Shown here: piece by piece, positions 5,405-61,312 of the stretch
Layout of the letters: each line of letters starts with the position of its first letter
How positions within the stretch are numbered: the stretch's first letter is position 1
Assembly: GCA_008501765.1 (NCBI GenBank)
Contig: QQUE01000002.1
Coordinates: 154,520 to 218,519 of the forward strand
Direction: 5' to 3'
Source: Calditrichota bacterium
GTDB lineage: Bacteria > Zhuqueibacterota > Zhuqueibacteria > Zhuqueibacterales > Geothermadaptataceae
DNA length: 64,000 nucleotides
Translations under genes and position numbers: made by a program
Notes under the pieces: generated by a model
Told to the model about the DNA's origin: nothing
Databases searched by the model: none
Seen by the model: the letters and a program-made list of their open reading frames with translations, nothing else

Positions 5405-6760
5405 TTATTCGCTTTTTTCAATACCAAGGTCTGCCATTTTTCGATAAAGGGTCGATGGATTAATTTCCAGGCGTCGCGCAGCATCTTCTTTATTCCAGGA
5501 ACAGGCTACCAGCGTTTGCAGCAAAAAAGTGCGTTCAAATTCATGCAAGGCGTCGCGCAAATTGCTTAATTTTGCCGGTTGTGGCGATGTGCCGCCAAGA
5601 AGCGGCGGCAGGCCCTTGCCGGTTATTTGTACACCGTCACATAATATCATGGCGCGCTCCAGCACATTTCGTAATTCACGAATATTACCCGGCCAGTCGT
5701 AATCGATGAGCATCTGCAGCGCATCAGCTGAAGCATTGATGTAGTTTTTTTTCATCTCGTCATTGAACTTTTGGATAAAATAATCCACGAGCAAAGGAAT
5801 ATCAGACTGCCGCTCTTTCAATTGAGGCAACTGTATCTCAAATACCGCGATGCGATAGTACAAATCTTCACGAAATCCACTATTTTTCACGGCTTCGGTG
5901 AGATTTTTGTTTGTTGCCGTAATAATGCGTGCATCCAGTTGAATGGCTTTTGTGCTTCCGACTTTGTGGAATTCACGCTGTTCAAGAACTCGCAACAACT
6001 TGCTTTGCAGGGACATTGGAATTTCGGAAATTTCATCCAATAAAATTGTACCGCCACTCGCCATTTCAAAATAGCCTTCTTTATCATTGGCGGCACCGGT
6101 AAATGCGCCTTTCACATGGCCAAACAATTCACTTTCCAGTAAATTTTCTTGCAAAGCCGAACAATTTATCGCGACAAAGGGTTTGTTTTTACAGGCACTT
6201 TGTGCGTGAAGAGCCTGCGCAACAACCTCTTTCCCTGTGCCGGAATCTCCAGTTATCAAAACAGTGCTGTTGGTGGGTGCCACTTTTTGGATTAATTCAA
6301 CAACTCGCTGCATCGCTTCACTTTTTCCCACCAAAGACAAGGAGCTCACATCTTTACGTATATTCAGCCTGAGATATTTGATTTCCTGCAAAAGGCGTTT
6401 GTGCTTCAGAATGCGTTCGAGCTTTATAAATAAATCATCAATGACCAGAGGTTTGAGAATATAGTCGACTGCTCCTTTGCGGAATGCCTCGATAGCTGTT
6501 TCAAATGTCCCGTAAGCCGTCATCATAACCACGGCACATTCCGGATGGTTTTGCATAATTTTATCGATGGTGTCGACGCCGCTCTGGTCCGGCAGCATGA
6601 TATCGAGAAGAACGATATCCGGCAAAAAGTCCTTTAATTCAGCAATACCCCGACCGGCGGTTTCCGCCGTACGGCATTCGTAATCCTGTTGGCGCAAAAG
6701 TGTAGCTATATCTTCCCTGAACAGGTTTTCATCGTCGATTATTAATATTTTTGCAGCCAT
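5405..6760 (-). CDS. Sigma-54-dependent response regulator, NtrC/ZraR type
   Basis: The 451-residue protein shows three domains: a receiver with phospho-acceptor Asp53 (VLLDIMLP), a central AAA+ domain with Walker A GDSGTGKE (171-178), sigma-54 contact loop GAFTGA (218-223) and Walker B (236-245), and a C-terminal Fis-type helix-turn-helix with the stretch ARRLEINPSTLYRKM. It therefore activates sigma-54 promoters when phosphorylated. The sensor kinase gene ends four bases upstream, so the two form one operon. By position and by analogy to ZraSR it probably controls the metal-response genes on either side. The regulon itself is inferred. Confidence 0.95.
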   Translation of the reverse strand: MAAKILIIDDENLFREDIATLLRQQDYECRTAETAGRGIAELKDFLPDIVLLDIMLPDQSGVDTIDKIMQNHPECAVVMMTAYGTFETAIEAFRKGAVDYILKPLVIDDLFIKLERILKHKRLLQEIKYLRLNIRKDVSSLSLVGKSEAMQRVVELIQKVAPTNSTVLITGDSGTGKEVVAQALHAQSACKNKPFVAINCSALQENLLESELFGHVKGAFTGAANDKEGYFEMASGGTILLDEISEIPMSLQSKLLRVLEQREFHKVGSTKAIQLDARIITATNKNLTEAVKNSGFREDLYYRIAVFEIQLPQLKERQSDIPLLVDYFIQKFNDEMKKNYINASADALQMLIDYDWPGNIRELRNVLERAMILCDGVQITGKGLPPLLGGTSPQPAKLSNLRDALHEFERTFLLQTLVACSWNKEDAARRLEINPSTLYRKMADLGIEKSE

Positions 6761-57900: not shown

Positions 57901-58866
57901 ATGAATAGATCGACTAACGGTCACGTCAACGGTTCTGTTTCACAAAGTGAAAAAAATCCATTTCCTAAATACGATCAGCATTTTCAGGCGACACCGGAAT
58001 ATATTGCCAGTTTGCCGGATATGCAAAATAAAAACAACAGCGGCGCTCAGGTCGCAATTCAGCATGTGGGAATCCATAATTTTAAAATACCGATGCACAT
58101 CCTTCTGCGTGACGGACAAACACGGGAAGTACACTGTGCTGTCACCGGCAGCGTATCGCTCGAAGCAGCGCAAAAAGGCATCAACATGAGTCGAATCATG
58201 CGCACATTTTATGAATACGAAAACAGCGAACTAAGCCCGGAAACTTTAAAAGATGTCGCGCGCAGCTATTTAAAAAATCTGGACTCCAGTTCAGCGCGAA
58301 TCGCGATCGCATTTGATTTCCCGATGAAGCTGGACAGCCTGCGCAGCGGTTTGAGCGGCTACCAATATTATCCTGTCGTACTCGAAACTGATTTTACACC
58401 CGATGATGGCATGCGTCAATTTATGCACCTCGACTTCACTTATTCATCTGCCTGTCCCTGTAGTTATGAACTGAGCGAACATGCAAAACAAGTACGCAAT
58501 GTAGCCACAGTACCCCACAGCCAGCGTTCCATAGCAAAAATTTCCATCAGACACGAGGAAGATATTCCAATCGAAGACCTCGTCGACCTCTGTCGAGACG
58601 CAATCAAAACCGAGACGCAGGTTATGGTAAAGCGGGAAGACGAACAGGCATTCGCTGAACTCAACGCGGCCTATCTCAAATTTGTTGAAGATGCCGTGCG
58701 TGTTTTATACGAGAAACTGGATAGTGATGAGCGAATTCAGGATTTCCGCGTTTTCGCCTCCCACGAAGAATCTTTACATTCTCACGATGCCATCAGTGTG
58801 ATCGCGAAAGGTATTGATGGCGGATTCACCGCACAGATTGAGCCTTTTACTTACAATGCCAAGTAG
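57901..58866 (+). CDS. folE2: GTP cyclohydrolase FolE2
   Basis: The 321-residue protein is a type IB GTP cyclohydrolase: GVHNFKIP-like (GIHNFKIPM), VHCAVTGSVSLEAAQKGINM, FTYSSACPCSYELSEH with the conserved Cys and His, and IAKISIRHEEDIP. It opens GTP to dihydroneopterin triphosphate for folate and queuosine-type pathways. FolE2 can use several metals and is often expressed in zinc shortage. GAGAG lies before the ATG. The terminator at 58887 closes the gene. Confidence 0.96.
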   Translation: MNRSTNGHVNGSVSQSEKNPFPKYDQHFQATPEYIASLPDMQNKNNSGAQVAIQHVGIHNFKIPMHILLRDGQTREVHCAVTGSVSLEAAQKGINMSRIMRTFYEYENSELSPETLKDVARSYLKNLDSSSARIAIAFDFPMKLDSLRSGLSGYQYYPVVLETDFTPDDGMRQFMHLDFTYSSACPCSYELSEHAKQVRNVATVPHSQRSIAKISIRHEEDIPIEDLVDLCRDAIKTETQVMVKREDEQAFAELNAAYLKFVEDAVRVLYEKLDSDERIQDFRVFASHEESLHSHDAISVIAKGIDGGFTAQIEPFTYNAK

Positions 58867-60876: not shown

Positions 60877-61140
60877 TAAATTCCTCCAATTCACACGAAT
60901 TTTGAACTTATATTCTGCGTGAAGTGTATTCTGTGGTGAGGTTTCTGCAAAACATGGCCGCCATTTTGCAAAACCCGTACCATTTGTGACAAGTAGTATT
61001 AAAACGCAAAAAAATGACGATATCGCGTCATTTTCGACCAGATGTATCAATATGAATCAACCAGAACCATAACGTAAAGAAGGTAACTTTTGTTCCAATA
61101 ATTTAAATTTTGGGGGAATAATTGAATTTTAAGGTCAAAA

Positions 61141-61285
61141 AAAATGAAATAAAAATAAAAAGCCGAGAATGCAGGTGTTGGTGTTAGGGGGGATGACCAA
61201 CTACCACAGGGTCTCGGCAATATTTCGACGGAAGCGGAATTAGGGGAGTTACCGTCTTCCATCTGCGACCAATTACGTACGCGCA
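61141..61285 (-). ncRNA. Probable small RNA with two C-rich hairpin loops
   Basis: On the minus strand, hairpin 1 (61230-61260) pairs GGAAG-A-CGG with CCGCTTCC and presents the loop TAACTCCCCTAATT. Hairpin 2 (61162-61218) has outer stem GCCGAGA/TCTCGGC and inner stem GTTGGT/ACCAAC, and presents CATCCCCCCTAAC. TTTTTATTTTT follows, as at a Rho-independent terminator. Both loops share a TCCCC(CC)TAA core that could pair with Shine-Dalgarno-like GGGGA. The transcript would be about 140 bases from a start near 61285. Start and function are inferred; no known family was recognised. Confidence 0.65.
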
Positions 61286-61295
61286 CCTGGTATTA

Positions 61296-61312
61296 AGCAA
61301 TCCAAGTGCCAA
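61296..61312 (-). promoter_or_regulatory. Sigma-54 promoter of the small RNA
   Basis: The minus strand reads TTGGCACTTGGATTGCT: -24 TGGCAC, ten bases between GG and GC, -12 TTGCT. This is a near-perfect match to the sigma-54 consensus, at the expected distance from the first hairpin. Confidence 0.75.

Follow-up and report, generated by a model that had tools for sequence, protein, structure and literature searches.

A candidate division KSB1 RNA family with C-rich hairpin loops, seen behind the S20 gene rpsT and in predicted small RNA genes with sigma-54 promoters

The Qrr-type sigma-54-dependent sRNAs are short intergenic RNAs that lie behind -24/-12 promoters, and in the staphylococcal Rsa RNAs UCCC loops have been proposed to meet G-rich Shine-Dalgarno (SD) sequences. 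The mycobacterial B11 (6C) RNA carries two C-rich loops that pair with ribosome-binding sites; either loop can suffice, and no chaperone is needed (PMC10470900). Regulatory RNAs may also come from the ends of mRNAs, as in Rhodobacter, where CcsR1-4 derive from the ccaF1 3' UTR (PMC8625941). Ribosomal protein S20 contacts 16S helices 6-9, 11, 13 and 44 (PMC3359968), no S20 operator has been established, and the literature has yet to settle S20 autoregulation (PMC10931766). Here we describe, by computation, a family of RNA hairpins with covarying stems, two genomic homes and a near-fixed promoter spacing. Comparison of sequences gives good support for treating it as a new RNA family, seen solely in candidate division KSB1, which adds such a family to a phylum in which Hfq went undetected and for which our searches brought up no described RNA regulator.

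In the window (the whole stretch of DNA analyzed, 64,000 nt, from a member of this division), the minus strand holds an apparent small RNA gene, about 135 nt long and preceded by a sigma-54 promoter; its predicted start is at about 61285 and its end in a U-tract terminator at about 61150. The initial annotation had described a -24/-12 site, two hairpins and a Rho-independent terminator here and had given no strand; all of them are present on the minus strand, in the 5' to 3' order sigma-54 site, unpaired block, two hairpins with C-rich loops, terminator. The -24/-12 promoter TTGGCACTTGGATTGCT (61296..61312, minus strand) agrees with TTGGCAY-N5-TTGCW at 12 of 12 positions and is the sole perfect match in the window. 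When one mismatch is allowed the window contains 2 matches vs 2.75 expected, and since such sites are no commoner than expected, the sigma-54 site alone proves little. Hairpin 1 (61227..61263, minus) appears in the predicted fold, is backed by covariation and carries the phylum-wide core, here GGTAACTCCCCTAATTCC at 61253-61236, with the loop TAACTCCCCTAAT at 61251-61239. Hairpin 2 (61162..61218, minus) is predicted by folding to be nested in the terminator stem GCCGAGA...TCTCGGC, and its apical part (61201-61177, minus) has the loop variant TCATCCCCCCTAACA. Behind this stem a U-rich tract (61150..61161, minus) completes the intrinsic terminator, and T runs stand behind the equivalent stem in relatives as well. 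The fold of the minus-strand transcript has a predicted energy of -46.1 kcal/mol (z = -4.75), a stability equaled by none of 200 shuffles, whereas the plus-strand fold differs less from its shuffles (z = -2.0).

The unpaired 5' block GCGCGUACGUAAUUG (61270..61284, minus) is identical in an alignment of four genomes of the same family, amid diverging flanks, and may be a family-specific second segment for binding; when its complements were sought in an 864-kb genome sample that includes the window, the longest was 11 nt, at an unremarkable site. The initial annotation had held that a coding signal would speak against a non-coding gene. The reading as a small ORF was rejected, as stop codons and changes in the length of the C run (4C/5C/6C) among four relatives break the frames. 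The RNA is preceded on its own strand by Mla-type ABC genes and their auxiliary lipoprotein gene and is followed by an SLT transglycosylase gene.

To follow the RNA through its relatives, we used BLAST, exact and near-exact word searches and covariance models. BLAST found a copy with 83% identity in the same genus and weaker copies in the family and order; the sigma-54-like site, the hairpin and the terminator are kept in these relatives and in a copy from another family of the class. Most low-scoring matches covered the A-rich tail and were discarded, and a match to the core in genome G043 (L017/L035), inside an apparent coding region, looks like chance. The 18-mer GGTAACYCCCCTAATYCC was present with at most one mismatch in 18 of 63 genomes of the class, and its reversed control in none. 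The covariance model R1, built from 21 hairpins, gave matches at E <= 0.01 in 46 of the 82 phylum genomes. At E <= 0.001 the 44 genomes that it matched all belong to the phylum, and about 306 genomes of other phyla gave no match; these E-values are rough. Direct reading of rpsT tails gave six further carriers (G004, G028, G040, G043, G063 and G065), four of them also matched by a second model, which brings the core GG-UAACYC(3-5)UAAUY-CC to 52 of the 82 genomes. These genomes are mostly draft MAGs, so that absences are soft. An exact 20-mer scan of 85k species returned eight contigs, of which five are titled candidate division KSB1, the source of the phylum name used here, one Calditrichota and two unclassified bacteria. 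In this genome the model has three matches at E <= 0.1, one after rpsT and two at the locus, the second of these being hairpin 2 (C8:215691-215726, E = 0.015). No Rfam family matches the region, either at the gathering score or with cmscan at E <= 1, and an Rfam scan of eight relatives showed nothing at the position of the RNA. Viral contigs held no copies, and the open-licence subset of the literature yielded no paper on this RNA.

Many of the model matches lie directly behind a gene ending like KGIIHKNKAANQKSRLAKFVN, which encodes ribosomal protein S20. The rpsT gene was identified by Pfam PF01649 in 72 of the 82 genomes, and in 40 of these 72, this genome included, the motif is found 26-102 nt past the stop codon, where it caps the terminator hairpin. 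The mRNA thus carries a conserved RNA element between the rpsT stop codon and the terminator. A covariation search in related genomes had been suggested by the initial annotation, and the stems do covary: among 38 rpsT hairpins, double changes occur at 11 of 14 pairs and 94% of cells pair, while none of 500 shuffles attained any of five measures. Because of the 83%-identical congener copy, the near-invariant loop, the near-fixed promoter spacing and this covariation, the locus is more than a chance arrangement, and there is strong support for describing it as a compact non-coding gene that combines a sigma-54 promoter with twin C-rich loops. That description proved correct and too narrow, since the same hairpin, as lay beyond its view, also terminates the rpsT mRNA in much of the phylum. 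Distant motif-carrying families mostly have the rpsT copy alone, and rpsT is therefore probably the ancestral home of the motif; several lineages carry the RNA only away from rpsT. A single near-invariant module serves in dedicated sigma-54 genes and as the 3' terminus of a ribosomal-protein mRNA, a clean case for studying how an RNA can pass between a 3' UTR and a gene of its own.

In its place at an mRNA 3' end the KSB1 RNA resembles CcsR1-4 of Rhodobacter; it differs from them in that the host mRNA encodes a ribosomal protein, Hfq is undetected in the phylum and free-standing copies exist, and its processing from the mRNA is putative. Like the autoregulatory RNAs of ribosomal proteins, it is a conserved element on a ribosomal-protein mRNA, but it is placed in the 3' UTR as a terminator and not in a leader, and it also occurs as a free RNA. 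The SD of rpsT itself was considered as a target of the 3' loop and rejected, as inspection of rpsT leaders by eye showed no conserved complement.

The stand-alone copies have one or two hairpins per gene. Sigma-54 sites scoring 9-12 of 12 are found 23-33 nt ahead of the motif in 11 genomes from 4 families, and the families with such a site before stand-alone copies are f1, f2, f4 (G026) and f7. In f3 and G064 a sigma-70-type promoter, TTGACA-(16 or 17)-TATATT, takes its place, and in G016/G021 a weaker TTGACA site precedes the stand-alone RNA. These promoter calls are consensus matches that draw their credibility from the spacing across relatives. The gene for sigma-54, rpoN (PF04552), is present in this genome (E = 1.3e-60) and in 76 of the 82 genomes of the phylum. 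The KSB1 RNA is like the Qrr RNAs in being short, intergenic and behind a -24/-12 promoter; it differs in showing no sequence relation to them and in belonging to a phylum where Hfq is undetected. We also noted a GAFTGA motif, typical of sigma-54 activators, at window position 6109 (minus), perhaps in the copper-island activator that the initial annotation had in mind as a speculative driver of the RNA.

The genes beside the stand-alone copies vary with the lineage: Mla genes in f1 and f2, a transglycosylase in f1 and f3, a TLC/MFS transporter in f7 and a NarL-type response regulator in f8, f10 and f13. In the last three families (L132, L120 and L131) the RNA is downstream of the regulator gene and is possibly its 3' UTR. 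In f10 no good promoter was seen before the RNA, which may therefore form the 3' UTR of the regulator's transcript there. Such varied neighbors speak for a trans-acting RNA and against a cis leader dedicated to a single gene.

By analogy with the actinobacterial 6C RNA, the KSB1 RNA probably acts in trans through its C-rich loop. The active unit would be the hairpin with its near-invariant closing pairs and loop. We propose two sources for the loop-bearing RNAs, release from the rpsT mRNA at its 3' end and transcription of dedicated genes controlled by sigma-54 (or sigma-70). With no need of Hfq, they would bind G-rich translation initiation regions in trans, and two hairpins would equip a molecule with two binding sites. 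A set of mRNAs would in consequence be repressed, with this repression coupled to ribosomal-protein synthesis and to sigma-54 signals, and the family may in this way link such signals to ribosome genes. We put at about even the chance that this is a phylum-restricted, Hfq-independent family of regulatory RNAs, arising from the S20 mRNA 3' end and from dedicated genes, that represses mRNAs in trans. Hfq (PF17209) was found in none of the 82 genomes, with five control genomes positive, and the chaperone-free pairing of 6C/B11 is therefore the nearest precedent; as a model for this RNA, chaperone-free pairing with ribosome-binding sites is a fair one, held with a confidence near the midpoint. The KSB1 RNA shares with 6C/B11 its two hairpins and C-rich loops. 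In contrast to them, it has no Rfam match (the 6C covariance model does not fit), sets its loops in a UAAC/UAAU context, is restricted to KSB1, has its hairpin in common with the rpsT terminator and is preceded by a sigma-54 promoter.

The initial annotation had proposed SD pairing by the C-rich loops. Complements of the loop of at least 6 nt occur at 32 of 586 predicted starts, vs 5-13 in shifted windows, an enrichment of about threefold in an 864-kb genome sample in which starts came from simple ORF calling. This enrichment is largely what any C-rich loop would give against G-rich SDs. Long antisense targets of the loop were not enriched over a reversed-pattern control, no long or conserved targets of the RNA were found in the sampled genome searches, and 16S rRNA holds no complement of the loop. 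On either side of the C run, UAAC and UAAU vary hardly more than the run does, a constancy which SD pairing alone does not explain and protein binding would suit. SD pairing is plausible, but the invariant part of the loop extends past the C run, and the searches brought no long conserved target to light. Neither Hfq nor CsrA is supported as a partner, Hfq having been found in none of the genomes and the distribution of CsrA not following that of the RNA. The Rsa and cuckoo RNAs, cited in the initial annotation as parallels, serve as analogies and not as known relatives of the KSB1 RNA: the staphylococcal Rsa RNAs share the C-rich loop, belong to a different phylum, have a different promoter and show no known sequence relation to it.

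Protein binding could take the form of a sponge or tag, in which the loop is the site of an RNA-binding protein that the stand-alone RNAs would draw away from rpsT and further mRNAs, in the manner of CsrB and CsrA. Loop constancy beyond the C run, the tandem copies in stand-alone genes and the lack of long complementary targets would all fit. We nevertheless regard this explanation as unlikely, given that f5, f9 (mostly) and f10 have the RNA without CsrA, that Hfq is absent from the genomes examined, and that about three sites in this genome are few for a global regulator. A different protein partner could be S20 itself. The hairpin may copy the internal loop of 16S rRNA helix 8 (GG..UAAC ... 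CUAAU..CC), which belongs to the region that S20 contacts, helices 6-9 included (PMC3359968); the rpsT 3' UTR would then be an S20 site on its own mRNA, and the stand-alone RNAs sigma-54-switched S20 decoys. The hairpin does sit on the S20 mRNA, S20 autoregulation is unsettled (PMC10931766), and helix 8 of the KSB1 16S shows both blocks, GGGAUAACC...GGCUAAUACC. Outside the hairpins and 16S helix 8 the two-block pattern has no match in 1.71 Mb of fetched loci; it has 4 in 1.6 Mb of unselected genome, from which about 0.004 would be expected in one 16S. On the other side, the likeness was noticed first and measured afterwards, the hairpin lacks the upper stem of helix 8, and several lineages have the RNA solely away from rpsT; for these reasons we judge the mimicry a live but improbable rival, and it also leaves the C run unexplained. 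The fuller claim, of an rRNA mimic that binds S20, with the rpsT 3' end as autoregulatory site and sigma-54-driven free copies as decoys tuning 30S assembly to a stress or nutrient signal, is a little more doubtful. If true, it would give an S20 autoregulatory site of a kind nowhere established so far. The family itself makes the question of S20 autoregulation testable in a new setting.

Two simpler explanations bear on the locus. Most copies are part of an intrinsic terminator, and the motif might be a decorated terminator with no further role; this is very unlikely, because termination does not need an invariant loop, hairpin 1 of the present locus is not a terminator and yet has the best-conserved loop, and stand-alone copies have dedicated promoters. 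As an alternative, the initial annotation had suggested that the RNA is a riboswitch or attenuator of the transglycosylase gene downstream, and a same-strand SLT transglycosylase does follow the RNA in f1 and f3. The RNA has its own terminator, however, gaps of about 0.8-1 kb separate it from the transglycosylase in G003 and G005, and no transglycosylase lies beside it in f7, f8, f10 or f13. With neighbors that differ among families and no fixed position before one gene class, we hold a cis leader to be highly improbable, and trans action through the loop is the reading that we prefer.

Three further features were noted near copies of the RNA or in the window. A cobalamin riboswitch (L103:3358-3561, E = 4.7e-28) is found near a stand-alone copy of the RNA. 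In the window, the stretch from the RNA to the transglycosylase gene contains a second terminator-like hairpin (61010-61035, minus), and a FolE2-type GTP cyclohydrolase gene occupies 57901-58866 on the plus strand.
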